A DNA stretch of 35,631 nucleotides from a virus. The position numbers and the translations under genes were made by a program. Where the stretch lies: positions 1 to 35,631 of the IMG/VR virus record IMGVR_UViG_3300042874_000185. The stretch is one strand, 5' to 3'. The notes under the pieces are model-generated. The model made no database searches and was not told the origin of the DNA. It was given only the letters and a program-made list of their open reading frames with translations. This document shows, piece by piece, positions 1 through 35,631 of the stretch; position 1 is the stretch's first letter, and each line of letters begins with the position of its first letter.

Positions 1-127
1 GCACTCAAGTCAGGTATCGAACCTGTTAATTGGTTGCTATTACAGTTAAAATAATTCAATAACGTATTGGCACTCAAGTCAGGTATCGAACCTGTTAATT
101 GGTTGCTATTACAGTTAAAATAATTCA
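1..127. repeat. Terminal direct repeat, left copy, made of 69-bp tandem units
   Basis: Bases 1-127 are identical to 35505-35631. The segment is one full 69-bp unit (1-69) plus 58 bases of a second (70-127). A 127-base end overlap is what a de Bruijn assembler run with k=127 leaves when a contig closes on itself. It is therefore probably an assembly signature of circularity, not a physical terminal repeat. Confidence 0.85.
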
Positions 128-455
128 TATTGACATTGTGTGAAATATCATGAATTGAGCCAGTAATCAAATTCCCAATTAACGAAAAATAAGTCAAACA
201 TCCATCAGGTGTTTCGGTAAATGTTAAATGACTATCGCTTGACGGTATTCCTACCGATATGTCATCCGCCCCTTGGTACACTACCCCATTAAGTGTCAGT
301 GAAGTACCTACAGGTGAAGTAAAATAATATAATTGATTTGTACTTGTTGAGTCATATTCAAATGTATGAGTGGTAACACCACCACCCCCGCCAGCGAACC
401 CATAGCCTGATGTTACGCCAAAGCCGAACCCATTTTTAGCCCCAAAGCCAAACAT
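1..455 (-). CDS. LRR tail-associated protein, N-terminal part (continues across the circle closure)
   Basis: The frame opens with ATG at 455, two bases after the stop of the upstream gene, and is still open at position 1. Because bases 1-127 equal 35505-35631, it continues in frame at 35504 and ends at 35150, giving about 269 residues in the assembled form. The first ~15 residues are rich in Gly and Phe (MFGFGAKNGFGFG), followed by a Gly5 linker and a ~65-residue beta-rich segment. Leucine-rich repeats of 23 residues then begin (NYFNCNSNQLTGSIPDLSA type). It lies after the tail fibre genes and before the lysis genes, a usual place for receptor-binding or accessory tail proteins. The role in adsorption is inference. 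The repeat number is uncertain because the assembly broke here. Confidence 0.75.
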   Translation of the reverse strand, partial: MFGFGAKNGFGFGVTSGYGFAGGGGGVTTHTFEYDSTSTNQLYYFTSPVGTSLTLNGVVYQGADDISVGIPSSDSHLTFTETPDGCLTYFSLIGNLITGSIHDISHNVNMNYFNCNSNQLTGSIPDLSANTLLNYFNCNSNQLTGSIPDLS

Positions 456-457
456 TG

Positions 458-697
458 TTATACCTCTGTGTCAGAGATAACAACTGCGGTATCTGTATAG
501 AGACACTTCGCCCATAATGTTTGATTGGCAGTACCGTTAAACTGCTCGTTCCCAGCGATGGTATGCCCTATTTCTGTAGCCGCTGGCTGTGTTGCCGCCG
601 TCATATACATAATGTAATCTTTCGATGTACAAAACCCTGAGCCAGTCAAAACCTCTGTGTAAGTGTTTGGGTAAACCTCTATATTTACTGTTGCCAT
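458..697 (-). CDS. Small tail-region protein, unknown function
   Basis: A 79-residue protein (MATVNIEVYPNTYTEVLTGS...), rich in Thr and beta-prone, with no membrane segment or signal peptide. The start is supported by an AAGGAT-type ribosome site about six bases upstream. It sits between the fibre genes and the LRR gene, two bases from the latter, so it is probably co-translated and a virion or fibre-attachment component. I do not recognise the family. It resembles in character the short beta-structured proteins found next to phage fibres, but this is only an impression. Confidence 0.7.
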   Translation of the reverse strand: MATVNIEVYPNTYTEVLTGSGFCTSKDYIMYMTAATQPAATEIGHTIAGNEQFNGTANQTLWAKCLYTDTAVVISDTEV

Positions 698-791
698 TGA
701 TAATCCTTTTTGTTAATTATATCTTAATTCCAACCTATTGTTGAAATTACATTGTTATAGTCTGTAACATCTAATTTACTCACGCTGACAT

Positions 792-1136
792 TTATGTTAT
801 AATCTCATCTTGTATTTCAAGCACCAACTGCGTATTGGCTATTGAACTGTTTACATAAGAGATATTAAAATCATTTACAATCTTCACGTTATACGTCTTT
901 GTTACACCGTAGATATGCAGGGGGATAGTAAACGCATCTATACCTCCTTTAAGGGTAGTGTAGTAGAAGCTACTAAGCCCTGCTATCTGCGCTGCAGTTT
1001 TGGAAAAGATAGTAAGATTAACCGTGGGTTTATATCGGTAGGTTTTAGTGCCTAAATACCTTTTAGTTGCCTCTTGATTACTTGCGTATCCGTCCGTTGT
1101 GATGCATCCATAAAGTGCCTCGTCATAGCTAGCCAT
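792..1136 (-). CDS. Hypothetical tail protein
   Basis: 114 residues with alternating hydrophobic and polar residues typical of beta sheet (TYRYKPTVNLTIFSK, PLHIYGVTKTYNVKIVNDF). No catalytic motif, signal peptide or membrane helix is visible. It begins nine bases after the large fibre gene ends and belongs to the same minus-strand unit. Position and fold type suggest a minor tail or fibre-associated protein; the family is not recognised. The ~95 bases after it contain a possible 19-codon GTG-started frame (724-783) that I do not call. Confidence 0.65.
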   Translation of the reverse strand: MASYDEALYGCITTDGYASNQEATKRYLGTKTYRYKPTVNLTIFSKTAAQIAGLSSFYYTTLKGGIDAFTIPLHIYGVTKTYNVKIVNDFNISYVNSSIANTQLVLEIQDEIIT

Positions 1137-1145
1137 ATTCTCTCC

Positions 1146-4100
1146 TTACCCGCAATGATAGGTACAAGCTATCATCTTTGTATTTGATGGTTCATCTGCC
1201 CAAATTACACTCTCTAATGCCTTTGCTACTGTATAGCTGTGCATTATATCATCACCTTGTTTCATTCCCTTTCCTTTCATGGTTGAGCTACAAATGTAAT
1301 CTCCTGATTGAATATCCCCATTCAAATCACAGACATTTATAGCCCCCTCTCCCACTGAATTAACTGAGCCAAACTTTAGGTTATCCTTTCTCATATCATC
1401 TACTGTCCCGCTCCACTTAGAGTGGGTTTTAACTTTAGAGTCTTTAGCGTCCAAGTCGCCAAAACACGCCTGCTGCAATGAATTGTCATCTATTTCAAAA
1501 TTTTCTCGACTGCAAACACCGAACACTCTCTTATCCATGGCTACAGTAGCAGGTGAACCATAACCAAAAGATTGACTCACATCAATCACAAAACAATTAT
1601 CTACTATGATAATATCCCCTATCTCGTATTGTTCTTTTGTTAAGAATAAGTGAGACCCAGTGAAAGGGTATACAGTACCACCAATGTACGCACTATCTGG
1701 AGTATAAAACCCGTATGTGCCGCCTGTTTGTGCTTGAACTGCATTGCCCGTACCCAGATTTACATTTGCGAACACAGCAATACCATCATTGGATTTAAAA
1801 TATCCTCCATATCCAAAATCCCCAGCGACTCCAAGCACCCCAATTGATGTGGTATCGGTCGAGTTGGTGTACCCATGAACCCCAATATTGTTAGAGTTAA
1901 AGGTAGTGTCATACCCCATTGAACCATCATCACTAGAAGAACCTAGAACACCGATTCCGTTGGTTGTTTTTTTGTTTATGCCGACCAAACCCATAGTGGG
2001 TAGGGTAGTAGTTGAATTATTATTCTCAGATATTAAGCCAGCATCTATGCCAAGTACATATGCGCCAATAGCTTGTCCTTGCGCTCTTAATCCACAGGTC
2101 TTAGTTCCAAATGGTGTTGTAATCCCAGTTGAAATTGTTGCATCAAAGTCAGCCGCCCCTTTTATAGTAAGCTTGTTATCAGTAGGTGTAAATGCTAACT
2201 TAGCAGTGCTACCCTCAGAGCCTAACGTCATGTTTTGACCCAAATAGAAGCTTCCATCTGTCTTTAGCACAGCAGATAATCCACCCGATGAAGCCCTGTA
2301 ACCATGAAGCCCTGTGTTGTTGATAAGTATGCCACCTGATGTTGGTGGTGTTGCGGAGGTTTTAATCACACCGCTTGTGTACATCTCATAAGTAGTTTCT
2401 TTAATTACACCTTTTGAAAACGTTGGGGCAGCCCCACTTGATGGTATGTCAAAAGTAGTGCCCAGTGTTGCACTAACTCCTTTGATACCAGTGCTATCAA
2501 CCTGCACATAGTTAGTTGCAGTTCCTGTTTTTATAATACCATTTGTACCATCTAATGTTACAACACCTGAAACAGATGCAAGGGTACTACCAATAACCCA
2601 ACCACCTATCGTGCCACTAGTAGCGGTTATAGCCCCATTTACAGAAAGCACATTAGTAGTACTATTAAATATCATCTTTCCACCGAAATTAACATCACCA
2701 GTATCTAGGTTTATAGTAGACTCACCGCTGGCAGCCGATAAAACCCCTGTGGTTACTTTTCCAGCTGACAATGTACCCGTTATGATAGAGTCGCCATCGA
2801 TATACTGTTGAACATCATATAAAAATTGACTAGCCCCGATTGAAGATACGGGTTGAGTTACACCTGTATAGACAACTGTTGTTGCACCAATCACAATTGG
2901 GGTAGTGGCATCATTGTACCAAGTTACCAAAAACGTATCACCCGATACGGCTGTAGTTTGATTTATTTGTGATAGAGCGTAGGCATCTTTAAGTGACTCA
3001 TAAAGCACTGTATTTAGATTTAGTTTAGTTGGCGTTGTAGACCCATAGACTGGTGCAAACGCATCATTGGCATCAGACAAGGCGGGTAAAGTGGTAGCTA
3101 CTACATTATCAAGTACTATTGAAATCGGATGGGTAAATGTTCCACGGACACCATTAGTTCCATTAGTACCTGGTGCTCCATCTGCCCCCGCAAAAGTTGG
3201 GCTAAATGTTACCACTATATAGTGGATAGAAGTAGTATTGTCTGTTGCTCTTACATAAAATTCTATTTGATACGTGGTAACAGAAGTTAGGTTACCAGCC
3301 CACGCATTATATCCCCCATTAGATGTCCCTCCTCCCAATAGTGGTGTAGGTATTGTCAGATTGTCCCCACTAACCTTTTGAATATTAACGTTAAATGAGC
3401 CTAGCCCAGTTGGGAATGATGATGATAGTGAACTTGATGATAATATATAAGCAACCCCTCCACGCTTCACAGAAAAGGCAGACCCTGAGCCTACCCAGTT
3501 TTCACTACCAAATGCAGACACTGGTACAGAATGATTAGAGTTGGACACAGTTACGTCATAGGCATCAGTCCCATTAGTACCTGGTGCTCCTGTTGCTCCA
3601 GCAAAGGTAGGGGTGATAGATACATCCTTGTATAGTTGGAAACTTGTTGTAGCGAGCTTAATGTAGAATGTCACCCTGTAGAGTGTTGCTTGCGTTAAGT
3701 TCTCTGCCCATACGCCAATGTTTGCAGTTGTACCACCTGCACCGGTAATCGTAGGTTCAGTGAGGGTATCACCGCTTATCTTGATGATGTCGATATTGTA
3801 TTGGTTAACACTGGCAGGGTATGATGCCGTTTGGGTGTTTGATGCAAGTGTCAGCGGCCCTGCGTCACCATTCACAATAGAAGCAATACTTGCCGATGCT
3901 GTCCAAGTCTCTGTACCACTCACATCAACAGGGATAGTCATCGCATCATTGCTATACGTTAATGTCACACCATCTATACCCTCAGCACCCGTCTTAGCTT
4001 TAGTAAATGATTGCTTCTTAGTGAGGGTGAAAGCTGTGCCGTTTAATCGTTTACCCGTTGCAGTGTAGGTTATGGACGCTAAGTTGGCTGTTATGTTTGA

Positions 4101-4994: not shown

Positions 4995-6481
4995 TAGACT
5001 ATCTCCTCAAATGTAAAACTATAGTTAGCCAATGGGTCTAGCATGGTTTGTTTCAGTCGTGTGTTCTGTTTGAATGAAGTAAACCGACCTACTTTTTGCG
5101 TGGCGGCAAACATATTATTGTCGCCTGTAGGTGCTTCATTGGTTGTACCATCAGAACCATCAATGATGACCGTTTGCTTCCCAATACTACCCATAAGCCT
5201 ATCTAGCCTATCGTAAGATGAGATTGGTATATCCACTGAGCCACTGTAAATTGCAACCCTCGCTCTATCTGTATAAGACACGTTACCCCATGGGTCATAC
5301 TCAAACACGCTAAAGTCTTTGTACTCATTGTTAAGTTCAAGGTTAGTCATGCCTTGATCCATCCAACCCCCAACTATGATACTGCCAAGCTCTACGTTGT
5401 CATTCCATACGCTGTCGTTGTAGATAGTGACAGTGATACTAGTACCTCCTGCAATTGTGACATCCACAGGATTGTAATAGATAACGGTGGTATACCAGTC
5501 TGGAAGCACCCCGTGTTCATCTCTTGATGCGTCTATAGGTATCGGTGCAGATGTTGGTGCAGTGCCTATCTTGTAGGTGTATGAAGTGCCTTTGACATAA
5601 CCCAACGCAAACATATTGGCATCAGAACCACTGTTGAAGGTGTAAACCATAGGCGATGGTGACGTTGCCTTGTTGTAGTTATTGCCGTCAAACGGTGCAA
5701 GTTTCTTATTGTCGCGTATGAAACTAAAGCGTGGTATATCTTCAGGTGATGTAACACTCTTAAACAGCATAGCGTCTTTAACATAGACAAATTGCTCTAC
5801 TGCGTTACCAGTTGTGATATGGGTTCTTATGTATAGCCCTCCAACATCGTTCACTGCACAGTTAGGAAACCAACTTGGGTAGATAGAACCCGTTACAGTC
5901 TGTATTGAAACAACGGGTAGTGATGTAAGGTCTGATATGGAAGTATACACAGGTATTCTAGCATCTGTGAACTCAACCGTTACGTCTGATGCATTTTTAA
6001 CAACAAGCCTGACATAAGCATCAGTAAAAGACCTCTGAAAGTAATAGTTATGCGTAAACCCATCAGGTTTGGTAATGGTGAACTCATACGGATTAGAGAG
6101 TGTCTCAGTACCTACTTCAAGGATATTACAAAATCTATTTGTCCAAGTTGTATGGTCACGTGTAGATGCACCCGATGCGACACTGATGTTATCGATAAGT
6201 GGATAGTATTGAGTAGGCATAGATGGTATATTACCCTCAGTCGCATACATAACCTGATTAGGATTAACCCCTTCACCCCACACGACATCGCCTAAAACAT
6301 AATGAGCATTTGGGTCATAGGTGAGGACGGGTATATCTTCAGTTGCATAATATACCTTGTTATTATATTGCACCTCTGATTTCTCTAAATATGTTTTCTG
6401 TGTCGTTATAGAGAATATCTCAGTATGGTCTACAACATTTGTTGATACAAAATTCGTATCAAAAGGGACTGATATTATCAT
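4994..6481 (-). CDS. Tail hub / distal tail protein, putative
   Basis: 495 residues directly after the tape measure gene (4-base ATGA overlap) and directly before the large fibre. Tape-measure neighbours at this point normally build the tail tip (distal tail or hub proteins). The sequence is almost entirely beta-type, with an early module resembling a carbohydrate-binding or YxxGD segment (YDPNAHYVLGDVVWGEGVNPNQ, near residues 53-74). No lysozyme or peptidase motif is visible. I infer the role from position; the exact family is not recognised. Confidence 0.7.
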   Translation of the reverse strand: MIISVPFDTNFVSTNVVDHTEIFSITTQKTYLEKSEVQYNNKVYYATEDIPVLTYDPNAHYVLGDVVWGEGVNPNQVMYATEGNIPSMPTQYYPLIDNISVASGASTRDHTTWTNRFCNILEVGTETLSNPYEFTITKPDGFTHNYYFQRSFTDAYVRLVVKNASDVTVEFTDARIPVYTSISDLTSLPVVSIQTVTGSIYPSWFPNCAVNDVGGLYIRTHITTGNAVEQFVYVKDAMLFKSVTSPEDIPRFSFIRDNKKLAPFDGNNYNKATSPSPMVYTFNSGSDANMFALGYVKGTSYTYKIGTAPTSAPIPIDASRDEHGVLPDWYTTVIYYNPVDVTIAGGTSITVTIYNDSVWNDNVELGSIIVGGWMDQGMTNLELNNEYKDFSVFEYDPWGNVSYTDRARVAIYSGSVDIPISSYDRLDRLMGSIGKQTVIIDGSDGTTNEAPTGDNNMFAATQKVGRFTSFKQNTRLKQTMLDPLANYSFTFEEIV

Positions 6482-9400
6482 GCTATTCTCCTTATTGTTT
6501 CTTCTTGTGATTTAACAATAGCATTCAAGTCTTTCAACTCTTTAACCACATCATCAAGCGTTGCTTCAGGTGCTTGATTTTCAAGCTCTTTTATATACGC
6601 ATCAAATATTGGTATGTATTCTTCTTTAGTTGATGTGCTTTTCAACCCTGCTTCAGCATACGCTCTTGCGGCATCAACACTGTTCAACTGCCCGTTACTC
6701 TCTTTTGTTAGGGCAAGGTAAGCACTGGCATAATCAGCTTTCTGTTTGAGTGTTAAATAGCTCAAGTTGCCTAACCACGCGTCAGCAACATCTTTAATCA
6801 TAGTGTTAATGACTTCAGCCGCCTCTTCAGCCGCGGTTGTCATATCGTTAAACCCACCAGCCAAACCAATCACTTCAGCGAACAGTGCAGCACCTGCGTC
6901 TGTAGTAGTATCTATGCCTTCAACCAGTCGTCTGAACTCTTCGTTGGTGTTAGGCATTGCTACACCCAGTGTCTCAAACGCTTTAGCCATCGTATTAGCT
7001 TGCATATCATACTGTTCTTGCGCACTAAAGAAGTTTTCAGTGTATGATGCCAAAGCACCGTTGAGTGCATCAAGACCACCTGCAATATCTACAATGATAT
7101 TAGCAGTTCTCCAGTCTACTGACTTGTTGATAAGCTCCATTGAGTGTCGCACTTGGTCAAAGTTTACAACGACACGTGTCAGTGTCTCAGCGAGACCCTC
7201 GCCCCCTCTTTGGAACTCTGCAACTGCACTAAAGTATGAATTAGCAATAGTGTCAAACTGTGCAGAGAACCTGCCCTCTAATTCTGCGGTCACTTCAGCA
7301 GCACTCATACCAGTGGTATCAAACGTGCCTATATTAATGGATTGGTTTGCAAGCCCTGCCGTGCTGATGCCCAGTGCCGTTCCAGCTGATGTGAGCATCT
7401 CAAACGCATTGGCTGTGGCTTCCTGTAGGTATTGTCCCAATAGCTCAGATATATTAGTGCTTGTGGTACTATAAGAAGTTTTAGTTTTAAGGATACCTTT
7501 CTTAACTGTCTTTGTCGTTTGAAGCAGGGTAGCGTTAACCCACCCTGCCATTACATCAGATAACGTTGCTGCACCAACTTGAATAGAAGTGCCAAAGAGT
7601 TCGGTTGATTTGCTAGTAAGTCCAAAGAACCCTGCACTTGCTGTCCCTTTGAAACTTGAACCCCCTAAGTCAAGCCCTGAGTTGAGCAGTGAGTTCTCCG
7701 CACCTGCAAACGCTTTATCAATGTTAGACAAGTACCCCGTCATTTCACGTGTAAGAGCTAACATCGGGTATTGGGCATCTTTAATATACTCTAAAGAGTT
7801 CGCCATTGACTCACTTGTCTTAGCCATATCATCAAGTACAGGCGGTGTTTGCTCTGTATCACCACCAAGAAGCGACCCCAATAAGCCAATACCAAGCCCC
7901 ACAAGTCCCTGACCCAACTCACCAAGTCCACCAAATAAAGAGCTTATACCACCTGTAAGGTTTTTAGATATACTGCTTATTAAACCTTTTGACAACTCTT
8001 GAGATATACCAGAGAACAAGCCTTTAACCGCTCCGCTCAGGTCACCGCTAATCAATCCCTCAAATAGCCCCTCAAACTGCTGTGAAAAGTCCAGTGCTAT
8101 CTCTTTGTTGGCATCTTTACCGCTGTTTGCGTATTTATCCCACATACCATCGTAAATATCTGATAACTGTTCCATGGAGTATTTACCGCTTTTAATAAAC
8201 TCTTGCATGGTCTCATCAACATCAAGCTGAAACAGTCCACTCTTATCACCTGTCAGCTCTAAGAACTTGCGGTATAGTTCTGTACTTTCTTTAATCGCAC
8301 CAGCTGTGTTTTTCATCGCTCCAGCTGCCTTTTTGCCTGCTGCTGCTGCCGCGTCCCCTGTTAGCCCGTACTTTTTAATATGGTCATCAAGTGCCTTGTC
8401 CGCAGCCGCTCTCTCTTTGGCTATCTTTTTCGCACCGTCTGACTCTTTAGCGTAACCCGCATTGATACTGTTGATAACCTCTTCACCATTTTTCTGTGAT
8501 GTGCCGTTTACAAGGTCATCAGCGTTTTTTTGATACTCAGCTTGTGCATCTGCCGCATACTTCCAAGCTGTTTCAACATTGGATATAGGTGCAACTATGG
8601 TTCCTATAGTTGCAGCTGTCTCTGCAAATGAAACTTCACTAATTGTGCCAAATATGGCATCCATCCCCACCGCGTTGCTCGCAGCATTAACATATCCTGA
8701 TATACTGTTGACACCCCTTATGATGTCGTTTATCATATCCGCGAACACTCTTTTGATGCCATTTGCAATATCAGCCCATAGCTGTGACATTCCGTTTCCA
8801 AGTGCTACCCATGACGACTGTATAGTATTTATGCCCGTACCTATTGCACCTACCATCTGCCAAAATACAGTCTTTATGAACCCAAACACCGCGCCAAAGC
8901 CTGATAGTGTATCTGACAATACCGCAAAGCTTCTGATAAGGAACTCAACACCGCCTTTGACTGCTTCTGCAAAGCCAGCCGCTGCACCCTTGCCACTGTC
9001 AAACATACCGCTCAGTAAGACCGATGCCTCTCCAGCCGCTGCTTTAATATAGGAGAATAGCCCAGCTTCACCTATCTCCTTGCCTGCCTGCTCAAAGTCT
9101 GTTTTGATACCCTGTAAAATCCCTTCCCATGATGATGCATAGCGTTCGAGCTGTCCAGCGTACTTTTGATTGAAAATAGCAGTGAGGGTACTTTCTATGA
9201 TTTCTTTGTTGTTTTGCACAATTACATTTCTGGCCGCACCGCTTGCATCAGTCCACGCGTAGCCTATCTTTGTACCAACTACAGACGCTTTGACACCAAA
9301 CTCTTTGAGCCTTTCATTTTCTCCCGTGAATGCATCAGCCATCGCTTCCACAAACTGGTCTAAGCTTTTACCACTGCCGATTGCCGTGTTCATAAAAGCT

Positions 9401-9810
9401 TTTAATGATTCTTCAGTGGGGTCGATGCCGTAGTTTTTCATCTTTATCATGGCATCAGTGGTTTCAGATAATGAGGTGTTATATTCGTCTGCAAAAGTAG
9501 ATGCAAAATTCATTACATCATTAACTTGATTTTGGGTTTTATAAAATGATGATAGTCTGTTTTCGTACTGCTCAAATTGTGAGGATAGTTTGACGATAGA
9601 TGAACCGATATCAAACGCCCCCCTGATAGATACAAAACTTGCATAGGTGGCGGCTAAAGTAGCCCCTAACGATTTCATTCTATCTGAAAAAATACCGCTT
9701 GACTTTGATATTTTACTAAAGGCTGCGTCAGTTTCGTTCGCTTTGGTTTTAATCGCGCTTAACTGCTTTTCAGCCTGTGAGCCGTCAACGGTTATCTTTA
9801 TTCTAGCCAT
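6478..9810 (-). CDS. Tape measure protein
   Basis: 1110 residues, the second-longest gene, located after the tail chaperone genes as in most siphophages. The N-terminus begins with a typical MARIKITVDGSQAEKQL segment and helical coiled-coil stretches. Hydrophobic helices occur around residues 280-330 and a Gly/Leu/Ala-rich stretch around 620-660 (GLGELGQGLVGLGIGLLGSL). It sets tail length. At about 0.15 nm per residue it would give a tail of roughly 160-170 nm, an inference from the family rule. It overlaps the chaperone frame by 8 bases and the next gene by 4. No peptidase domain is evident. Confidence 0.93.
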   Translation of the reverse strand: MARIKITVDGSQAEKQLSAIKTKANETDAAFSKISKSSGIFSDRMKSLGATLAATYASFVSIRGAFDIGSSIVKLSSQFEQYENRLSSFYKTQNQVNDVMNFASTFADEYNTSLSETTDAMIKMKNYGIDPTEESLKAFMNTAIGSGKSLDQFVEAMADAFTGENERLKEFGVKASVVGTKIGYAWTDASGAARNVIVQNNKEIIESTLTAIFNQKYAGQLERYASSWEGILQGIKTDFEQAGKEIGEAGLFSYIKAAAGEASVLLSGMFDSGKGAAAGFAEAVKGGVEFLIRSFAVLSDTLSGFGAVFGFIKTVFWQMVGAIGTGINTIQSSWVALGNGMSQLWADIANGIKRVFADMINDIIRGVNSISGYVNAASNAVGMDAIFGTISEVSFAETAATIGTIVAPISNVETAWKYAADAQAEYQKNADDLVNGTSQKNGEEVINSINAGYAKESDGAKKIAKERAAADKALDDHIKKYGLTGDAAAAAGKKAAGAMKNTAGAIKESTELYRKFLELTGDKSGLFQLDVDETMQEFIKSGKYSMEQLSDIYDGMWDKYANSGKDANKEIALDFSQQFEGLFEGLISGDLSGAVKGLFSGISQELSKGLISSISKNLTGGISSLFGGLGELGQGLVGLGIGLLGSLLGGDTEQTPPVLDDMAKTSESMANSLEYIKDAQYPMLALTREMTGYLSNIDKAFAGAENSLLNSGLDLGGSSFKGTASAGFFGLTSKSTELFGTSIQVGAATLSDVMAGWVNATLLQTTKTVKKGILKTKTSYSTTSTNISELLGQYLQEATANAFEMLTSAGTALGISTAGLANQSINIGTFDTTGMSAAEVTAELEGRFSAQFDTIANSYFSAVAEFQRGGEGLAETLTRVVVNFDQVRHSMELINKSVDWRTANIIVDIAGGLDALNGALASYTENFFSAQEQYDMQANTMAKAFETLGVAMPNTNEEFRRLVEGIDTTTDAGAALFAEVIGLAGGFNDMTTAAEEAAEVINTMIKDVADAWLGNLSYLTLKQKADYASAYLALTKESNGQLNSVDAARAYAEAGLKSTSTKEEYIPIFDAYIKELENQAPEATLDDVVKELKDLNAIVKSQEETIRRIA

Positions 9811-10608: not shown

Positions 10609-10657
10609 TGTGTGTTTTCCTGTGTGTTTTATGCTTGTGTGATTTTACCTATAAAGA

Positions 10658-10679
10658 GGGGTGACACACAAAACACCCC
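10658..10679 (-). terminator. Possible terminator or attenuator hairpin after the tail tube gene
   Basis: GGGGTG at 10658-10663 pairs with CACCCC at 10674-10679 across a 10-base loop. On the minus strand this lies just after the tail tube gene and is followed by a short U-rich stretch (TCTTTAT). It may partly terminate transcription between the highly expressed tube gene and the chaperones, or protect mRNA 3' ends. Confidence 0.45.
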
Positions 10680-10692
10680 CCATGTGTACCCA

Positions 10693-11160: not shown

Positions 11161-11162
11161 TG

Positions 11163-12577: not shown

Positions 12578-12786
12578 TTTTTAGCCCTTGTTGATCTAGT
12601 GGGGGTTGCTTCTTTATCAAACGATACAAATTCAACCTCAACACCCATATCCGCATAAGCATCACGGATATTTTCTCTGTCCGTGATAACCTTGGCTGCA
12701 CTCTTGTTTGGTTCATGAAAGAAGTCAGGGTTAGAAAACACCCCGACCAGTCCGTCTACTTTATTGGAGGCATAGATGATAGTCAT
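12574..12786 (-). CDS. Small protein between capsid and adaptor genes, unknown
   Basis: 70 residues, starting one base after the major capsid stop. The N-terminus (MTIIYASNKVDGLVGVFSNPDFF) looks like a short strand-rich fold. A helical section follows (AAKVITDRENIRDAYADMG), and the C-terminus is basic (TPTRSTRAKK). Small genes in this position are often head decoration or connector-assisting proteins. I do not recognise the family, and no membrane segment is present. Confidence 0.65.
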   Translation of the reverse strand: MTIIYASNKVDGLVGVFSNPDFFHEPNKSAAKVITDRENIRDAYADMGVEVEFVSFDKEATPTRSTRAKK

Positions 12787-12787: not shown

Positions 12788-13717
12788 TTATGCCCCTGCT
12801 TTAATCAGTACTCCAGCACTGCCTTTTCTGTCTCCAACCAAGTCCCATGAAGCAGCTGCTGCAAGAGTAGCGTCATCTGGGTTGATGCCTTGAGTTTGAA
12901 CATAAGTAAAGCCTTTGAGCTTGATAGTATAAGCACCCTCTTCACGTAAGTACATACCAGCATTTTCTTTGTCTAGTGACTCAGCTGTCATGAATCTGAT
13001 TGCTTCAGACTCATCGATAAGAATAGCCCCAAGAGTCAACCCGATAACCTTCTTAACACCCGTTGTAAGTGCATCAGAGTCAACCATCCAGATTGCTCGC
13101 CCCAAAGTACCCGTCTCACCTTTGTACACTGCACCGTAAGAAATTTGGTCACCGCTTGATGCCAAAGAGCCGTTTACCAACCCGCCTACTACAATGGAAG
13201 GGGATACAAATGTCACAATCGTATCAGATTGGTCACCGAATTTAAATACACCTGAGTTTAGGTCGTTGATAGTGATTGTGGCATCCGCTGTAGTATGTAT
13301 ACTATCTGCTTCCGTTCCAATCGCTGCAACTACTGAAATCAATGCGCGTTTAAGAATAAATCTTGTTACCGCGTCACCAATCTCTTCACCCAGTTTTGTT
13401 TGCATCGCTTCCATGGATGTGCCGTATCTAGCCAGCTCAGTGTACGTTGCAAATACCAACTCTTTAAAGTACAGCTTCACGTCTGTTTTTTCAAGGTTAG
13501 ACAATCTCTTTGCTGTTGCAGGTGTGTCCACTGTTACATCTCGTCTTGATGCTTCACCTAGTGCTGCAAAGATAGTGGTTTCTAAAAAGTCACCTTTATG
13601 GATTGAAGAACCTACTTCAATTGCACCGTTTGTTGCTGTCTGTGCAAGGAGTAGATTATCTTTAATCGTGTCCATTGCAATTAGTGTTACTACTTCTGTA
13701 TTGAAAATCATTGCCAT
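12788..13717 (-). CDS. Major capsid protein
   Basis: 309 residues, in the position expected directly after the scaffold. The N-terminus (MAMIFNTEVVTLIAMDTIKDNL), the long helix (LYFKELVFATYTELARYGTSMEAMQTKLGEEI), the beta-rich P-domain-like region (SDTIVTFVSPSIVVGGLVN) and the C-terminal A-domain-like segment are consistent with an HK97-type coat protein. There is no fused protease or delta domain, which agrees with a separate scaffold gene. Two near starts (Met1 and Met3) are possible. A one-base gap separates it from the preceding scaffold stop. Confidence 0.85.
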   Translation of the reverse strand: MAMIFNTEVVTLIAMDTIKDNLLLAQTATNGAIEVGSSIHKGDFLETTIFAALGEASRRDVTVDTPATAKRLSNLEKTDVKLYFKELVFATYTELARYGTSMEAMQTKLGEEIGDAVTRFILKRALISVVAAIGTEADSIHTTADATITINDLNSGVFKFGDQSDTIVTFVSPSIVVGGLVNGSLASSGDQISYGAVYKGETGTLGRAIWMVDSDALTTGVKKVIGLTLGAILIDESEAIRFMTAESLDKENAGMYLREEGAYTIKLKGFTYVQTQGINPDDATLAAAASWDLVGDRKGSAGVLIKAGA

Positions 13718-15437: not shown

Positions 15438-16803
15438 TGACTATGTCTCTATCATTCAGCGCGCTGATATCAACCGTTTTCAACTCACCATAGTTTTGCA
15501 GCTCAGTCAGGTAGGCAGTCTTATCGATCGTTCCATCTGAATAAAGGTCGCTCAGCATTTTATAGCTCAGGTCATCCATGCTGGTGTCAAAGAACTCTTT
15601 GTTTGTGGTGATATAACCCTGTGGTGCTACCCCTGCGAACTTTGAAAACAGTGTATGTATCTGGTTGACATACTCTTCCATCTTGTACGATAATGACGCC
15701 ACCATGCTTTCACCGACTACCCGCTCGCTCTCTGATTGCGTCTGTGTTTTGTTCCCTGTGGTCTCAGATATAAACCGCACGAACCCGTCTACAATTGCAT
15801 CCTTTTTATCCTGCAGTGTGGACTTAAGCACCGCGTCCGCACTTCCATTGAGTTCCTTTATTTCCACATCACCCAGTTTTGCACCCGTCTCAGGGTTGAC
15901 ACTGAAGTCTACACCTTTGCTGGATTGAAATTCAACGACATTGATAGGGTTGCCGTTGTCGTCCGTGGATGGCATTGCTATACCCGCACTGTTAGCCATC
16001 ATTCCCCATGTGGTCACAAATGGGAAGGCTAACTTTTTGTTATAGCTGTCCTTGGCACTTTCAATGTTGTAGTACTGAAGCTGATAATTAGCTTCATTGA
16101 TAAACGGGGGGATATCTACCGTATCATCAAACACAAGCTCAATGATACTTAACTCATTCACACCGCTTTGGATAGTATCAGTGAGTACTATGCCGCCATC
16201 GGTTTCTCTAAACACCTCAACTGTGCCATCGCTGAAATAAACACGATATTCGGTCTTTGTCTCTTCCTCATATTTATCCTGTGAATATACATAAGTACCA
16301 GCTACGGCGATATGTTCTATATTTCCGTACTCATCCCGTCTAAGCACACTGTCCATAACCTTATCACGCGAGATAATTGACAAGTAGGGTCTAATGCCCA
16401 GTTGCTGTTCCTCTCTTGCATTTGATGCCTGTACAGGTGGTGTCCATACCAACACATATACTTTGTTCTCCAGTAGCATATACCGCAATAAATCCTTTGC
16501 CAGCTCATTGAGTGACTTAGTACCATCGGCGGTGTCGTAGTATCTTGTTATGTCATGGGACACTCCCTCATCGATGGTGATAGGATTCTTAAATATAATG
16601 TTGATAATTGAATTAACCGCGCGTCTGTAGGTAGTTCCACATGCTGATGAAGCTAGTCGACGATTGTATTCAGCTGCCGACTCACTGCCTGATTTTTCAA
16701 GATAAGCCTGCACTTTATCAGCCCCCGTGTAGGTATTGAAGCACTTTAGTGACTGGTCTATGACGACTTGGTTTTCGTAAGTAAAGTTTGGAACTGTAGC
16801 CAT
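15427..16803 (-). CDS. Portal protein (DUF4055 type)
   Basis: 458 residues. The sequence pattern EYNRRLASSACGTTYRRAVNSIINIIFKNP near residues 45-75, the VYVLVWTPP strand, SIIELVFDDTVDIPPF and a C-terminal helical segment are characteristic of DUF4055 portal proteins. The product forms the ring at one capsid vertex for DNA entry and tail attachment. It begins about 85 bases after the large terminase ends and overlaps the minor head gene. The start ATG at 16803 precedes MATVPNFTYENQ. Confidence 0.87.
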   Translation of the reverse strand: MATVPNFTYENQVVIDQSLKCFNTYTGADKVQAYLEKSGSESAAEYNRRLASSACGTTYRRAVNSIINIIFKNPITIDEGVSHDITRYYDTADGTKSLNELAKDLLRYMLLENKVYVLVWTPPVQASNAREEQQLGIRPYLSIISRDKVMDSVLRRDEYGNIEHIAVAGTYVYSQDKYEEETKTEYRVYFSDGTVEVFRETDGGIVLTDTIQSGVNELSIIELVFDDTVDIPPFINEANYQLQYYNIESAKDSYNKKLAFPFVTTWGMMANSAGIAMPSTDDNGNPINVVEFQSSKGVDFSVNPETGAKLGDVEIKELNGSADAVLKSTLQDKKDAIVDGFVRFISETTGNKTQTQSESERVVGESMVASLSYKMEEYVNQIHTLFSKFAGVAPQGYITTNKEFFDTSMDDLSYKMLSDLYSDGTIDKTAYLTELQNYGELKTVDISALNDRDIVNGR

Positions 16804-18113: not shown

Positions 18114-18448
18114 TCCAGCGACCTCTTCCATGCCTCCACTTCACGCGTGACATACAGGCACTCTATACACATCTCATCTTTGCTAGTCAGCTCAGTACCG
18201 CAGCGGGTGCATGGGTGGACATGGATGGTGATATTTTTAAATGCAAGAGCGGTCTTGCATTCATCAGAGCAGGTTGTAGCATATTTGACATTTAACTTTT
18301 TGTTGCAGTTCTTACAGTAACAGTCTCTTTTTGCTTTCTTGCACCATAAATCATTCGCATACTTTTGTCGGTGGCTGATGGTGCAGTACAAATAACCTGC
18401 TGGGAGGTGGTCTATGTTCTTCTTGCAATATTTACACAGCCGTGCCAT
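18110..18448 (-). CDS. Multi-zinc-ribbon protein between the terminase subunits
   Basis: 112 residues with several metal-binding motifs: CKYCKK near residue 5, CYCKNCNKK and TCSDEC in the middle, and CTRCGTEL with CIEC near the end. The spacing suggests two or three zinc modules. There is no HNH signature (no suitable His-Asn-His), so it is not the usual packaging-associated HNH nuclease. Its place between small and large terminase genes, with a 4-base overlap onto terL, suggests a packaging or DNA-binding accessory role. This is inference. Confidence 0.75.
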   Translation of the reverse strand: MARLCKYCKKNIDHLPAGYLYCTISHRQKYANDLWCKKAKRDCYCKNCNKKLNVKYATTCSDECKTALAFKNITIHVHPCTRCGTELTSKDEMCIECLYVTREVEAWKRSLE

Positions 18449-20759: not shown

Positions 20760-23006
20760 ATGATATATAGAGATTTTATTGACAATGGATATGCAATATT
20801 TGGGCTGTATGGTGCAAAAGACGGGTTATGCGATTGTCTTAACCCAAAGTGTCAAGCACTGTTTAAACACCCCCTTATATCAAACTGGCAGCACACAACA
20901 CCCATGGACGATGAACAACTAGAATGCGGTGAATTGACTGGGCAGTTTGAAACTGGGTACGGTGTACTGTGTAAGGGGTTACTGGTCATAGATGTAGATG
21001 CGCGCAATGGTGGTATTGAGAGTTATGAAAGACTGGTTGCTGATATCCCTGAGATTGCACAAAGCGGGCTGATAGTTGAAACTGGAAGCGGTGGAGGTTC
21101 ACGTCACCTGTTCTTTAGTGTACAAGGTGGTATTTCACTCCAGCAGCACCTTAACAAATATATGGGAATAGATTTTAAATCAAGCGGCTTTGTAGTGGGT
21201 GCTGGAAGCATACATAACAGCGGAAAAAGGTACAGGGTAGTCTATGGGTCACCCTCAGAGATAACAACCGCCCCTGAGCGTCTTTTGGAACTGCTGGTGC
21301 GTAATCATACTGTTGATAACAACAGCTATTCAACCACTTCTTCCAGCTCCATTGGGGATATGCTCAATATGCTCAATGTTATAGACCCTGACTGTAACTA
21401 TGAACAGTGGTATCGTATTGGTATGGCTATACATCATGAGACAAAAGGAGGGGAAAGCGGTTTTACACTGTGGAACGACTGGAGTAAAAAAGGCAAAAAA
21501 TATCCAGACTTGCAAGCACTGCAGGCACGATGGAACAGTTTCGGGAAATCAAGCGCAATTGTAACCGTTGGTACACTGGTTCATTACGCTGAAGAGGCTG
21601 GATATGTTACACCCGTTGAATTTGAAAATGTGGACTATTTTGAAGAAGAAACAAATATGTCTATCTTTGACCGGTTTAACCCACCTGCTCTAGCTGGCAG
21701 GATAGTAAGTTTTGTAAACAGCAAAAGCAGATTTCCACGTGAAAATCTAGCAGTCGCTGCTGCGCTTATGGCAATATCCAGTGCGTGTGGTTTGAGATAT
21801 AGATGCAAAGACACAGGCACAACTGCAAACATATTTACATTCGGTGTCGCAGGCTCTGGAACGGGTAAAGAAAACATACTGCAGACTTATACATCCCTTT
21901 TAGATGAGGCTGGTATAGTAAGTGCTGTACACGGTTCTATTAAATCAGAGCAGGAGATATACAGAAACATAACGCACCATCAAGCCGCGTTTTATGCGAT
22001 TGACGAAATGGGCGAAATGCTGAGTAAAATCCAAGGGGCTAGAAAAAAGAGCGGCAGCGCGGCTTATTTGGAGGGGATTATCGGGACACTGATGTCTATC
22101 TACTCAAAAGCAAACGGCATACAGCTTATTACGGGTGATGCAAAAAGAGAGATGCAAAAAGAGTTATCAATAAAAATATCCAGCGTGATGAGAAAGATTG
22201 AAAACAACGAAGCCACCGCTGCAGATAAAGAAAACCTGACAAGCTTGAAGAGTCAGTATGAGGAAAGCGAAAAAGGTATAGTCAATCCATACCTAAACCT
22301 TTTTGGATTAACCACTCCAAACAGATTTTATGAGTTGCTGGATAATGACATGGCAGAAAATGGGTTCTTTGCTAGAGCATTTATTTTCAAAGAAGATGAA
22401 GACAACCCACGTAAAAATAGTTCTTATACAGAACTGGATACAAATGATCGTGAGTTCAAAGCCATTGGGAATATTTTATCCAATATGCATCACGGAGGGT
22501 ACACAGCCAGCAGCAGAATAGAGAGGCTGGGTGAGCTTGAGTATATACCTACTAGCGCCAGTGGAAAGAATATCAGAGAAACAATAGCCAACCATTTTTG
22601 GGAAATGGGCGAAGTACAGAAAGAGACACAAGGCATGGTGGCACTGACACGCCGTGGTGCTGAAATGGTAAACAAATTGGCGTTAATTCTGGCAATAGAA
22701 GACGGTGAAATAAGAGATGAACACCTGCTATGGGCGTTTGAGTTTGTCAAAGACGATTTAAGAAGCAGAATACTTATCGCCCACTCAAACAGCACAGACG
22801 ATGGTGGCTTGGCAGTACTATCCAAAATAACATCAAGGCTGGACACAGTGAATGGATTATCTTTTGCAGTGCTGCAAAACAAAACAAAAATTAAAAAAGA
22901 AGACTTGAAGAACGCTATAGAATACCTCCTTAAACACAGCAAAATAAGTGAGGTTTGGACAACACCGGTGCGCGGCCCCAAAACAGTTAAATATGTATTA
23001 GTGTGA
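20760..23006 (+). CDS. Primase-polymerase / DUF3987-type helicase replication protein
   Basis: 748 residues. Residues ~1-185 are an archaeo-eukaryotic type Prim-Pol domain (PF09250): catalytic VIDVDARNGG, then GSGGGSRHLFF and the DFKSSGFVVGAGS motif. Residues ~195-285 match the PriCT_2 domain (NYEQWYRIGMAIHHE, KYPDLQALQARWNSF). The rest is a DUF3987-like ATPase, with Walker A GVAGSGTGKEN (~364-374) and acidic FYAIDEMGEM (~405-415). It should synthesise primers, and possibly copy DNA, and unwind at the fork; it probably acts as the initiator at the adjacent iteron origin. No other DNA polymerase is encoded. The start lacks a clear ribosome site. Confidence 0.9.
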   Translation: MIYRDFIDNGYAIFGLYGAKDGLCDCLNPKCQALFKHPLISNWQHTTPMDDEQLECGELTGQFETGYGVLCKGLLVIDVDARNGGIESYERLVADIPEIAQSGLIVETGSGGGSRHLFFSVQGGISLQQHLNKYMGIDFKSSGFVVGAGSIHNSGKRYRVVYGSPSEITTAPERLLELLVRNHTVDNNSYSTTSSSSIGDMLNMLNVIDPDCNYEQWYRIGMAIHHETKGGESGFTLWNDWSKKGKKYPDLQALQARWNSFGKSSAIVTVGTLVHYAEEAGYVTPVEFENVDYFEEETNMSIFDRFNPPALAGRIVSFVNSKSRFPRENLAVAAALMAISSACGLRYRCKDTGTTANIFTFGVAGSGTGKENILQTYTSLLDEAGIVSAVHGSIKSEQEIYRNITHHQAAFYAIDEMGEMLSKIQGARKKSGSAAYLEGIIGTLMSIYSKANGIQLITGDAKREMQKELSIKISSVMRKIENNEATAADKENLTSLKSQYEESEKGIVNPYLNLFGLTTPNRFYELLDNDMAENGFFARAFIFKEDEDNPRKNSSYTELDTNDREFKAIGNILSNMHHGGYTASSRIERLGELEYIPTSASGKNIRETIANHFWEMGEVQKETQGMVALTRRGAEMVNKLALILAIEDGEIRDEHLLWAFEFVKDDLRSRILIAHSNSTDDGGLAVLSKITSRLDTVNGLSFAVLQNKTKIKKEDLKNAIEYLLKHSKISEVWTTPVRGPKTVKYVLV

Positions 23007-27969: not shown

Positions 27970-28873
27970 ATGAGTTTAGGTATACCATACATGGGCAGTA
28001 AGCGAGTCATAGCAAAAGAGTTGGTTGATTTTATGGTGCAGGCAAACCCAAACGCTAAGTATTTTTACGACCTCTTTGGCGGTGGTGCTGCGATGAGTTT
28101 TGAAGTACTCAAGCGAAATAGATTTGAAAAAGTGTTTTATAATGAACTTAACACAGGCGTGACCGAGCTTCTCAAGAAGATACAAAAAGACGGCGTGACG
28201 GATGAGTTTTACCGCTGGATAAGCCGTGAAGAGTTTCACACACGAAGGAACGAACCCACATGGCAGGGCGGTCTTTTACAGACATGTTGGAGCTTTGGAA
28301 GCAAGCAAAAAGATTATTTGTATGGGAAGCACATAGAAGAACCAAAAAGGCTACTGCATGAAATTATTGTAAACAGATGCAGTATTGCAAAAAGTAGATT
28401 TGAGAGCCTGACTGGCTTATGGATAGATGACTATTACCTGCAAGATGAAAGCATAAATAAACGTCGTCTAGCAGTCATGGTCATGGTCAAAGCTTCACTG
28501 GGTAGAGTATCCCTGGAACATCTACAAAGCATACAAACAGCTAGAACGCATACAGAACATACCGAACCTACAAATCTCAAACATGAGTTACACAGATGTT
28601 ACAATAACCACCCCGATCGATGAGACTATCATTTATCTTGACCCACCGTATAAAAATACAGAAAAGTACACAGAAATACTTTGTCACGATGAGCTAACGG
28701 ACTATATCAAAAACAGCCCGTACAAAATATATGTAAGCAGCTATGAGTTTGATTTACCGATGGTGTGGCAAAAGTACAAGCGATGCACCTTGTCAGCTAC
28801 AGCAAACAATAATATAGCAACAGAAAAACTGTTCTGCAACCGCGAAGACCATACAGGAGGCACACTATTTTGA
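27970..28873 (+). pseudogene. dam: DNA adenine methyltransferase (Dam type), interrupted by a +1 frameshift
   Basis: The first frame (27970-28623) has PYMGSKRVIAKELVDF (SAM-binding motif I) and FYDLFGGGAAMSFEV. The second frame holds YLDPPYKNT (motif IV) and continues to 28873. Reading the second frame upstream gives VEYPWNIYKAYKQLERIQN from 28502, which is normal Dam sequence. The break therefore lies at the GGG at 28500-28502. Removing one G restores KASLVEYPWN and a 300-residue protein. As written, the first product lacks the catalytic DPPY motif. It could be a true mutation, a sequencing error or recoding. It would methylate adenine, probably in GATC. Confidence 0.88.
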
Positions 28874-29649: not shown

Positions 29650-29957
29650 GTTATGAATTAGAATACACAAAAGAAGAGACACGAGCAAGCGAAGCACAAA
29701 TCAAAGAGGTATCGGAAGACACATTTTACCGGTATATCTTTGAGATGGGTGAAGTGCCTGATGAGTTGGAAGTCAAAGTTGAAGATGAGTATTTTGACAT
29801 TAATGTTGATGATGTATTCACCAAAAATGAACAACGACTGCTTAAGAACATCATAGAAAATGATGATTGCTTTGATGTGAGTTTTGATGCATTCGTGCAA
29901 AAAGTCAAAGAGATCTTCACTGGGTTCAACAGTGCAATTTTAGGAGGTGTGAAATGA
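29646..29957 (+). CDS. Acidic early protein, unknown
   Basis: 103 residues, strongly acidic (EEVSEDTFYRYIFEMGEVPDELEVKVEDEYFD; ENDDCFDVSFDAF). Acidic small early phage proteins can mimic DNA or bind basic host proteins, but nothing specific shows this here. Ribosome site GGGGAGG lies upstream. The stop overlaps the next start (ATGA). Confidence 0.65.
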   Translation: MSYELEYTKEETRASEAQIKEVSEDTFYRYIFEMGEVPDELEVKVEDEYFDINVDDVFTKNEQRLLKNIIENDDCFDVSFDAFVQKVKEIFTGFNSAILGGVK

Positions 29958-30514: not shown

Positions 30515-31002
30515 ACCAAAATCATAAACGCACTATGATTTTGGCAGGCATCATCGGCATGCTATTTGCCTGTTATGACGAAAAAGAAAAAACACGGCTC
30601 CACAAAGAGCTGCACGAAGGTGTAGGTAGAGGTATCCGAAAGCAAGTGAAACTCTATTCGATCAAAGAAGTTATGGAGGTAACCCATAAAGACGGTAACG
30701 ACATTTGGGGGAAGGCAGTAGACCATTTTCTTGAGCGTGAGATAACCATTGAAGCCAGTGCATGTGTGCTTGCACTTTGGAACTTAGACGAGAAAGCCTT
30801 AGCCAAACACTTTGGGCTGAGCAGGTCAAAGATAGGACAGTGGGCGAAACCATCAAAGCGTGCAGACAGACGTGAACTTGAGATTGCAAGCCGTGAGGTA
30901 GCCAAGTATGTGTGGGGTGCTATCAACGCGCTTTACGGTATTGAGGAAGAGAAAAAGATGAGCGTGCTTGAGCGTATACGGTTAATGAAAGAAATGGCAT
31001 AA
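30511..31002 (+). CDS. HTH protein, putative transcription regulator
   Basis: 163 residues from ATG 30511 with GGGAGG eight bases upstream; an earlier ATG at 30496 would place the ribosome site inside the gene. A clear helix-turn-helix is ALAKHFGLSRSKIGQWAK (~residues 97-114). A helical N-terminal region and a conserved-looking segment LYSIKEVMEVTHKDGNDIWG precede it. As one of the later genes of the early unit it is a good candidate for the switch to late transcription; that is inference. No sigma-factor signature. Confidence 0.7.
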   Translation: MNQNHKRTMILAGIIGMLFACYDEKEKTRLHKELHEGVGRGIRKQVKLYSIKEVMEVTHKDGNDIWGKAVDHFLEREITIEASACVLALWNLDEKALAKHFGLSRSKIGQWAKPSKRADRRELEIASREVAKYVWGAINALYGIEEEKKMSVLERIRLMKEMA

Positions 31003-32510: not shown

Positions 32511-32539
32511 GATATCAAGGTATAGGAGAATTAAAATGA
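32498..32539 (+). repeat. 42-bp direct repeat, copy 2
   Basis: Second copy of the repeat at 31932-31973, with four mismatches. It spans the end of the 88-residue gene and the ribosome site of the last early gene. Together with the 27-base start-region similarity (32244-32270 and 32536-32562; two mismatches) it points to duplication within this cluster. Confidence 0.85.
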
Positions 32540-32988: not shown

Positions 32989-33075
32989 CCATCAGGTTAG
33001 CTGATTGAGTTCAGGCAATGGGCAATAAGGGTGATGACCATCATTAAACTATTTTTTGCAGGAAAGACTACCTTG

Positions 33076-33126
33076 TAGCCCTCAAAGAGGGTTATGAGGT
33101 GAGCTTATGTTCACCTCACCCTTTTT
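33076..33126 (+). terminator. Rho-independent terminator between convergent units
   Basis: A first hairpin, TAGCCCTC-AAA-GAGGGTTA (33076-33094), is followed by TGAGGTGA (33095-33102) pairing with TCACCTCA (33111-33118), then CCCTTTTT. The second is a strong terminator for the plus-strand early unit. The endolysin stop on the minus strand lies at 33125, so the hairpins also sit at the end of the late unit and may act in both directions. Confidence 0.85.
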
Positions 33127-34117: not shown

Positions 34118-34361
34118 CCTTTTTAAAGTCCGTTATTTTGCTTAACTCAAAATCATAAAATTGAGTTATAGCCAAAACATCTTTGTCGTAAGTCTTCATC
34201 CGTGCCTCTAATTGCGCCATTTCTTGCCTTGCCAATTCACTTGCAACCTTTGAGTTAAGTTGGCACTCTTCTTTGGCTGTATGCTCTATAAACCCATACG
34301 CAGACAGAAACACTATCACCCCAGCCATTGCATAGATGATATATTGCTGTATCACTTCCAT
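34059..34361 (-). CDS. Inner-membrane spanin-like protein (Rz-like)
   Basis: 100 residues with one N-terminal membrane anchor (QQYIIYAMAGVIVFLSAYGF) and a periplasmic coiled-coil (CQLNSKVASELARQEMAQLEARMKTYD). The gene end overlaps the Rz1-like gene in another frame. i-Spanins join with the outer-membrane lipoprotein to fuse the membranes in the last step of lysis. It overlaps the holin-like gene by 10 bases. Confidence 0.75.
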   Translation of the reverse strand: MEVIQQYIIYAMAGVIVFLSAYGFIEHTAKEECQLNSKVASELARQEMAQLEARMKTYDKDVLAITQFYDFELSKITDFKKDDNETECDASFRMLRGFKF

Positions 34362-34603
34362 AACCTATCATATTCTTTTGTGAGTATCGCTCTTATCACT
34401 GCTACGATTGACACGATGTTTATAGCAATCAAACTCATCTTGTTTTCAACAAACATCCCACCGCAATCTTTTGCATAGTAAAACGCAAATGACAACCCCA
34501 CTATAAAAGCAGTGGTCGTGTAGCTGTTCTTGTATGACTTTGTAGCAAAAAGCACAAACAGTAGCCCTAGTGTTATCATATAATGAATGTTTAGAAGCAT
34601 CAC
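34352..34603 (-). CDS. Holin-like protein (three membrane segments)
   Basis: 83 residues with hydrophobic segments around 9-20 (ITLGLLFVLFAT), 30-44 (TAFIVGLSFAFYYAK) and 56-73 (MSLIAINIVSIVAVIRAI), and a basic/acidic end (LTKEYDRLWK). Size and topology fit a class I holin. It lies between the second holin candidate and the spanin pair. It could also be an antiholin to the neighbour. Confidence 0.65.
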   Translation of the reverse strand: MMLLNIHYMITLGLLFVLFATKSYKNSYTTTAFIVGLSFAFYYAKDCGGMFVENKMSLIAINIVSIVAVIRAILTKEYDRLWK

Positions 34604-35043
34604 TTTGAGCCTCCCAAAAATCTATTTAAAATAAAGTTAGCAACTTTTATAGAGCTTTGAAAGAACCAGTTAAATAATGGTACGGTAAACCAAGATAACA
34701 TAAAACTTATAATTAGCATCACTGATTTACCAACCTTTGTGGGTTCTGCAAATCCAAAGATTTCTTTTATCACATCGTTACCAGCATCCGTCAAAAGCAA
34801 GTACCACAATGGTATAGCAAGAAGCCCCAATACAATACCCTTTAGCACTTCAGCCAATGCCTTAAATAATTTAACTTCATCATGCTTACTCAACTCATGT
34901 ATCACCCCACTTGCAGAAACTATAGCACCAACCAAAGAGAGCGGTATATATGATGGGTCATTGAATATAATTAAGTCGCCTATTAATCCACCTGAAGCCA
35001 CCATAGCCCCCCCTTTGATAATTGTTGCCGTCTCTGTCGTCAT
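34600..35043 (-). CDS. Holin candidate, larger multi-span membrane protein
   Basis: 147 residues with several hydrophobic stretches: ~12-25, ~33-45, ~65-85 (VLKGIVLGLLAIPLWYLLL) and ~108-125 (MLIISFMLSWFTVPLFNWFF). Phage lysis clusters often hold such a protein upstream of the spanins. No enzymatic motif. The start overlaps the preceding 37-codon gene as ATGA, and the end overlaps the next holin gene by four bases. It could be the pore-former, with the 83-residue protein modulating timing. Confidence 0.65.
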   Translation of the reverse strand: MTTETATIIKGGAMVASGGLIGDLIIFNDPSYIPLSLVGAIVSASGVIHELSKHDEVKLFKALAEVLKGIVLGLLAIPLWYLLLTDAGNDVIKEIFGFAEPTKVGKSVMLIISFMLSWFTVPLFNWFFQSSIKVANFILNRFLGGSK

Positions 35044-35153
35044 ACCATAATTTCCTGTACGTATAGTGGTGATACCTTCACAAACGGCATAGGATAGTAC
35101 GTAAGCCCTGATGGCTTGATGAAGTAAAACCGATTTATGTTAGTTGTTCTCAT
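35040..35153 (-). CDS. 37-residue bridging protein between LRR and holin genes
   Basis: MRTTNINRFYFIKPSGLTYY... ends PLYVQEIMV. The ATG at 35151-35153 overlaps the LRR TGA, and its TGA at 35040-35042 overlaps the holin ATG, both as ATGA. The Tyr/Phe/Pro-rich composition (YYPMPFVKVSP) looks like a real small protein, not a random frame. Function unknown. Confidence 0.6.
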   Translation of the reverse strand: MRTTNINRFYFIKPSGLTYYPMPFVKVSPLYVQEIMV

Positions 35154-35631
35154 CTTATTCTCTTTAGTTTGGTAGTCACAGTACAACCATTGCCTTCAAG
35201 GATGGCTTTGTTTGCTAAACCAGCAGAGCTAGGTATACCATTCGTGCCACCCTCTAGCGAAATAGTAGCACCAATGACTCCAGCATTAACGCACGCCTGT
35301 AAAATATCGTCTACTGCTTGAACACTTAAGTTATTATCAGTTGCGGAAAAACTGTATAATGATGCAGGTAGTGAACCACCTGCAAAGCCTGTTAATTGGT
35401 TAGCACCAATATCTATTTCTTCCAACGCAGTATTGGCACTCAAGTCAGGTATCGAACCTGTTAATTGGTTGCTATTACAGTTAAAATAATTCAATAACGT
35501 ATTGGCACTCAAGTCAGGTATCGAACCTGTTAATTGGTTGCTATTACAGTTAAAATAATTCAATAACGTATTGGCACTCAAGTCAGGTATCGAACCTGTT
35601 AATTGGTTGCTATTACAGTTAAAATAATTCA
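35150..35631 (-). CDS. LRR tail-associated protein, C-terminal part (same gene as at 1-455)
   Basis: This is the 3' part of the gene that starts at 455. It holds two full near-identical 23-residue LRR units plus a partial one, then a diverged unit (ALEEIDIGANQLTG), a last irregular LRR-like stretch (SLPASLYSFSATDNNL) and a C-terminal cap ending TTKLKRIR. The pattern LxxxxCxxNQLTGSIPDL is typical of bacterial and phage LRR proteins that bind surface ligands. There is no signal peptide, as expected for a virion part. The stop TGA overlaps the ATG of the next small gene (ATGA), so the two are translationally coupled. An internal TTG within a repeat is not a credible start. Confidence 0.75.
   Translation of the reverse strand, partial: NYFNCNSNQLTGSIPDLSANTLLNYFNCNSNQLTGSIPDLSANTLLNYFNCNSNQLTGSIPDLSANTALEEIDIGANQLTGFAGGSLPASLYSFSATDNNLSVQAVDDILQACVNAGVIGATISLEGGTNGIPSSAGLANKAILEGNGCTVTTKLKRIR
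35436..35631. repeat. 69-bp tandem repeat (LRR units) at the right end
   Basis: Units start at 35436, 35505 and 35574, the last cut after 58 bases. They appear identical. Each unit encodes one 23-residue leucine-rich repeat on the minus strand. The tract length of 196 equals 127+69, exactly the length at which a 127-mer recurs within the tract. The assembler could not count the copies, so the real number may be larger. Confidence 0.85.

Follow-up and report, generated by a model that had tools for sequence, protein, structure and literature searches.

Restriction-Site Avoidance in Phages and the Stretch Analysed

Avoidance of Type II restriction sites is documented for phages. In the parts of Rusinov et al. 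2018 (PMC6286503) on which we draw, sites are significantly under-represented in about one-fourth of viral genomes and completely or nearly completely eliminated in about one-tenth, elimination is more pronounced in non-temperate phages, and of 46 phages with a GATC enzyme encoded by the host, 45 show under-representation of GATC. As far as the relevant sections of PMC9723563 and PMC10734518 go, Nitratiruptor phage NrS-3 carries an RGATCY restriction-modification system with its own nuclease and methylase. For lactococcal phages, among which orphan adenine methylases of the 936 type are described, the part of PMC4190342 used here reports that DpnI cuts GATC-methylated phage DNA, which DpnII spares. 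Here we describe virus record IMGVR_UViG_3300042874_000185 of IMG/VR (positions 1 to 35,631; this whole stretch of 35,631 nt is the window), in which GATC, GGCC, CCGG (with ACCGGT spared), CCNGG, GGNCC, GGNNCC, and GAWTC are depleted over positions 1..35631 under both Markov models and a codon null model.

The window fits the documented avoidance. As in the cases covered by the consulted part of Rusinov et al. 2018 (PMC6286503), a double-stranded DNA phage shows palindromic Type II sites at an observed/expected ratio of about 0.1 or below, with GATC as a commonly avoided site. It differs from them by the strong depletion of seven motifs within a single genome and by the sparing of CCGG as ACCGGT. 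With NrS-3, as described in the sections mentioned (PMC9723563, PMC10734518), it shares a related capsid protein, and sites of the GATC type play a role in this host group; no NrS-3-type nuclease was present among the window proteins scanned. With a probability of roughly 0.82, we read the depletion as avoidance of Type II sites driven by several restriction specificities of the host. This looks like the known viral escape from restriction enzymes, not like a new mechanism.

Depletion of GATC

By exact count, GATC occurs eight times in the 35,631 bases, at 5356..5359, 12593..12596, 15526..15529, 17675..17678, 22446..22449, 28615..28618, 29912..29915, and 30660..30663, of which 28615..28618 lies within the overlap of two methylase reading frames. 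The number and all eight coordinates given in the initial annotation are thus exact. Its random expectation of about 130 compares with 131 from base composition, 95 under a first-order Markov model, and 132 under a second-order Markov model (z = -13.8), and over this range of 95-132 the depletion is strong. The residual sites are spread evenly without clustering (Kolmogorov-Smirnov p = 0.72). Among the single-base variants of GATC, TATC/GATA and CATC/GATG reach 1.28-1.29 times their expectation (z about 7), and the remaining ones range from 0.86 to 1.06.

For the codon null model, the synonymous codons of 45 gene calls (31,719 bases) were shuffled 300 times, which leaves the proteins and the codon usage unchanged. 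Within genes, 8 GATC sites are observed versus 94.9 +/- 7.7 in this null (ratio 0.08), and the lowest of the 300 shuffles still contains 75. The depletion is present in both large modules, with 4 versus 60.0 sites in the structural and 4 versus 28.8 in the early module. Explanations by composition only or by codons are rejected by this null. A depletion arising as a side effect of the base composition, the codons used, or the encoded proteins can be given hardly any weight: other words deviate in the codon null too (AATT 95 vs 176, ratio 0.54; TCGA 35 vs 89, ratio 0.39), but GATC lies below all 300 shuffles, and the near-identical or comparable words GASTC, GGNNNCC, GTAC, and AGCT are near expectation in the same null. 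Further milder deviations were seen for ACGT (0.51) and CGNCG (0.28).

Further Depleted Motifs and Their Boundaries

Motif figures are given as observed/expected counts, written x/y. Equal depletion of all 4-base palindromes would have spoken against a GATC-specific effect; GTAC, AGCT, and TGCA reach 0.97-1.02 of their first-order expectation, but GGCC (3/76) and CCGG (5/46) are as depleted genome-wide as GATC. The same applies to interrupted palindromes, with CCNGG at 3/68, GGNCC at 3/68, and GGNNCC at 8/68, and GAWTC at 8/58 versus GASTC at 41/42. In the codon null, the corresponding counts are 3 versus 37.0 for GGCC, 5 versus 40.6 for CCGG, 3 versus 32.7 for CCNGG, 3 versus 27.1 for GGNCC, 8 versus 50.9 for GGNNCC, and 6 versus 46.5 for GAWTC. 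Hence, after control for composition and coding, observed/expected is well below 1 for six motifs besides GATC.

The boundaries of the depleted set are sharp. GASTC is normal in the codon null (module sums of 37 vs 35.1), and GGNNNCC is near expectation (38 vs 49.8, z = -2.0), so that GG and CC spaced by zero to two bases are purged far more than GG and CC spaced by three. The purged motifs and their boundaries correspond to known Type II recognition sites, with near-identical words spared (GAWTC versus GASTC; GGN0-2CC versus GGNNNCC). The choice of the codon null matters, since CATG is at 78/188 versus the Markov model, yet its module sums in the codon null are 70 versus about 74.

The initial annotation had attributed the scarcity of GATC to long exposure to a GATC-cutting host enzyme. 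Restriction exposure is still the best reading and is strengthened by the finding that other motifs are purged with sharp specificity, but a single GATC enzyme is too narrow due to the involvement of seven recognition-type motifs. We infer that restriction enzymes are the cause and that several are involved. The host bacteria would carry several orthodox Type II restriction enzymes, across strains or over time, which would cut unmethylated sites as the phage DNA enters. Lineages losing sites, mostly via synonymous change, would survive better, and repeated selection would nearly empty the genome of GATC, GGCC, CCGG, CCNGG, GGNCC, GGNNCC, and GAWTC.

Taken separately, the two large modules are both poor in GATC, GGCC, and CCNGG. 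For GGNNCC, the purge affects the structural module (1 vs 28.2) more than the early one (7 vs 17.6); the opposite holds for GAWTC (structural 6 vs 28.8, early 0 vs 16.1). These differences fit a mosaic genome. The GGNNCC counts are also as would be found with differing module histories, in which case the avoidance may be a fossil inherited from an earlier host and no longer under selection. We regard this as very improbable, since mutation would restore sites after selection ends and three of the motifs are low in both modules.

The ACCGGT Exception

All five residual CCGG sites, the first at 3742..3745 and the others starting at 16939, 21671, 22965, and 29729, lie inside ACCGGT according to the context count. 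In the other 15 of 16 contexts, CCGG occurs 0 times versus about 33.5 expected; ACCGGT itself occurs 5 times versus 6.8. It is tempting to speculate that the depletion of the seven motifs is a readable record of the restriction repertoire of the host, with ACCGGT as one protected exception, although we consider this reading doubtful. If it were true, a host or phage methylase would shield ACCGGT from the CCGG enzyme or, alternatively, the CCGG enzyme would be unable to cut in this context, and the broken methylase of the phage (see below) would represent a discarded, redundant defence. The ACCGGT exception and the contrast between GAWTC and GASTC are sharp enough for testing against a host methylome.

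The process behind the depletion is textbook knowledge, and the ACCGGT exception is the part that we single out as worth following. Beyond this, the window adds an uncultivated phage with a strong and specific imprint of several restriction specificities together, and such imprints can help to predict hosts and defence repertoires of metagenomic phages.

The Split D12 Methylase

A gene for a D12-class adenine methylase is located at 27970-28873 on the plus strand and is frameshifted. The N-terminal part (27970..28623, +; PF02086 positions 1-75) and the C-terminal part with the DPPY motif (28583..28873, +; homology to Lau218 in this frame from about 28535) lie in two frames instead of one continuous frame, and each half is 44% identical to one intact methylase of Lau218. 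No match to the N-terminal part was obtained in a PDB sequence search. With the lactococcal 936-type orphan adenine methylases, as presented in the consulted part of PMC4190342, and with those of Lau218, the window thus has a homologous methylase in common, both halves matching that of Lau218; it differs from them by the broken reading frame, and its GATC specificity is putative.

An intact relative with 67% identity is encoded on contig L293, which is likewise GATC-poor (3/19). In case of Lau218, with two annotated N6-adenine methylases, GATC is mildly depleted (42/97). The linker of the L293 methylase is a long repetitive LQSLES-type stretch at the corresponding place.

According to the initial annotation, the GATC depletion would explain why the phage carries a Dam-type methylase. 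This is not supported: the gene is split, the L293 contig with its intact homologue is GATC-poor as well, and an active GATC methylase would protect the sites and relax selection against them. Depletion and self-methylation are therefore alternative defences, with neither accounting for the other. A methyl-dependent nuclease of the DpnI or Mrr type could have made the phage's own methylation at GATC harmful, so that sites and methylase were both lost. The frameshift and the few residual GATC sites agree with this scenario, as does the DpnI cleavage, without DpnII cleavage, of GATC-methylated lactococcal phage DNA in the text of PMC4190342 referred to above. It leaves the six other motifs unexplained, however, because these would not be marked by a D12 GATC adenine methylase, the GATC specificity of the window enzyme being itself putative, and we consider it improbable.

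Comparison with Other Phages and Loci

Two surveys place the avoidance of several restriction specificities in a wider context. The first comprises 86 sequences with a length of 11.5 kb or more, in which phages, prophages, and host flanks are mixed, related loci are kept in, and both Helicobacter pullorum prophage loci are included; it was evaluated with a panel of 48 motifs without GAWTC. The window has 6 depleted motifs in this panel, 7 sequences have more, 6 others tie, and 72 have fewer. The degree of depletion in the window is not exceptional, given the 7 of 86 sequences with more depleted motifs in this crude survey. The H. pullorum prophages L114 and L027 have 15 and 13 of the 48 motifs depleted, respectively, including GATC, CATG, GGCC, and GGNNCC. 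In L113 (MW202675, Manatee Spring), GANTC (2/189) is the sole depleted motif of the panel. The phage contigs L017 and L018, both of low G+C content, lack GATC, CTAG, GTAC, GANTC, and TGCA completely.

A separate per-locus motif table covers, above L030, one in four of the fetched loci. The second survey comprises 130 representatives of the 185 loci that measure 7 kb or more, excluding shorter loci and motifs with an expectation below 8. Depletion was observed for GATC in 38 of 130 loci, for GGCC in 29 of 129, for GGNCC in 33 of 128, and for GGNNCC in 14 of 128. Overlapping sets occur in the unrelated phages L190, with all seven motifs, and L186, and similar sets also in L217 and L193. The full motif set of the window was matched by none of 13 genome stretches counted. 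In L015, L217, and L023, GGCC, GGNCC, and GGNNCC are all at zero, and GGNNNCC is at 20/26, 8/16, and 2/17, respectively. The recurring co-depletion of GGCC, GGNCC, and GGNNCC might reward a larger survey.

One activity with relaxed spacing could be imagined for GG-N0..2-CC and CC-N0..1-GG, with separate enzymes for GATC and GAWTC. A joint purge of the three GG..CC spacings that stops short of N3 is seen in the window as well as in the three loci just mentioned, and among the 128 representative loci GGCC and GGNNCC are co-depleted with an odds ratio of 13. The motifs are nevertheless separable: among 28 GGCC-depleted loci, GGNNCC is depleted in 10 and not in 18, and L195 retains GGNNCC at 13/25 with GGCC and GGNCC at 0. 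To our knowledge, there is no enzyme with such a relaxed specificity. Due to the separation of the motifs in other loci, a single relaxed GG/CC enzyme is rejected as a general rule, and for the window we regard it as highly improbable.

Relatives and Candidate Hosts

The major capsid protein (12788..13717, minus strand) is 45.7% identical to those of Nitratiruptor phages NrS-1/2/3, followed by matches of about 31%. The tape measure protein (6478..9810, minus strand) matches NrS-2/3 with 36% identity over 23% of its length. The terminase large subunit (16890..18131, minus strand), which was used as query for relatives, is 47% identical to H. pullorum prophages; among 80 listed genome contigs, it matches best to a gammaproteobacterial bin (52%), followed by an epsilonproteobacterial bin and H. 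pullorum (47% each). Due to these resemblances of capsid, tape measure, and terminase, a campylobacterotal host is favoured, and the host is probably campylobacterotal or a similar proteobacterium. For the replication genes, greater similarity is seen to phages that infect marine gammaproteobacteria and pseudomonads.

Scans for terminase, helicase, and Sak4 yielded 23, 67, and at least 80 loci (for Sak4 the best 80 of 100), most of them distant. Viral-contig scans with primase, tape measure, and portal revealed no relative, nothing in the phage collection matched the portal, and megablast of window positions 1-12000 against this collection gave no match. No publication was recognised in a literature search as describing this phage.

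Nucleases were searched in 200 genomes of the phylum to which the epsilonproteobacterial bin belongs. The initial annotation had suggested a search for MboI/DpnII-type systems in candidate hosts, and matches to the DpnII family of GATC nucleases are indeed present in 46 of the 200 genomes, but none of these is shown to be the host. HaeIII-family matches occur in 11 of the 200. Some of the matches to both families are fragments or contain stops.

Several observations weigh against restriction-site avoidance under several host specificities. No host genome, prophage, or clustered regularly interspaced short palindromic repeat (CRISPR) spacer link was found. When both halves of the window were compared at the DNA level with 298 genomes of the candidate phylum, only short background-type matches and no convincing prophage or spacer were obtained, with short weak matches in 55 and 129 genomes, respectively, at E <= 0.01. 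The LlaMI family, which presumably has CCNGG specificity, is represented in 0 of the 200 genomes, but with equally silent controls this zero carries no weight. The Nitratiruptor phages, as the nearest named capsid relatives, are unlike the window in that the NrS-3 stretch is not depleted of GATC (113/120). The closest terminase relative, L002, is mildly GATC-poor (22/39); it shares the depletion of GGCC, GGNCC, GGNNCC, and CCNGG, and hardly that of CCGG (6/8).

Genome and Gene Layout

An exact direct repeat of 127 bases is present at both window ends (1-127 and 35505-35631), which suggests that the genome is complete and was assembled as a circle. In its gene set, the phage looks similar to siphoviruses. 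The structural genes for tape measure, capsid, portal, and terminase are located on the minus strand, and the replication and recombination genes for primase, Sak4, single-strand binding protein, RecE-like nuclease, and helicase on the plus strand. The window contains no transfer RNA genes, and no integrase turned up in PHROGs, Pfam, and NCBIfam scans of the window proteins, which covered part of the open reading frames. A CHAP-domain protein, probably a lysin, is encoded at 33125-33709 (minus strand) according to a domain match, and an open reading frame at the genome end (35150-35581, minus strand) shows leucine-rich-repeat matches.

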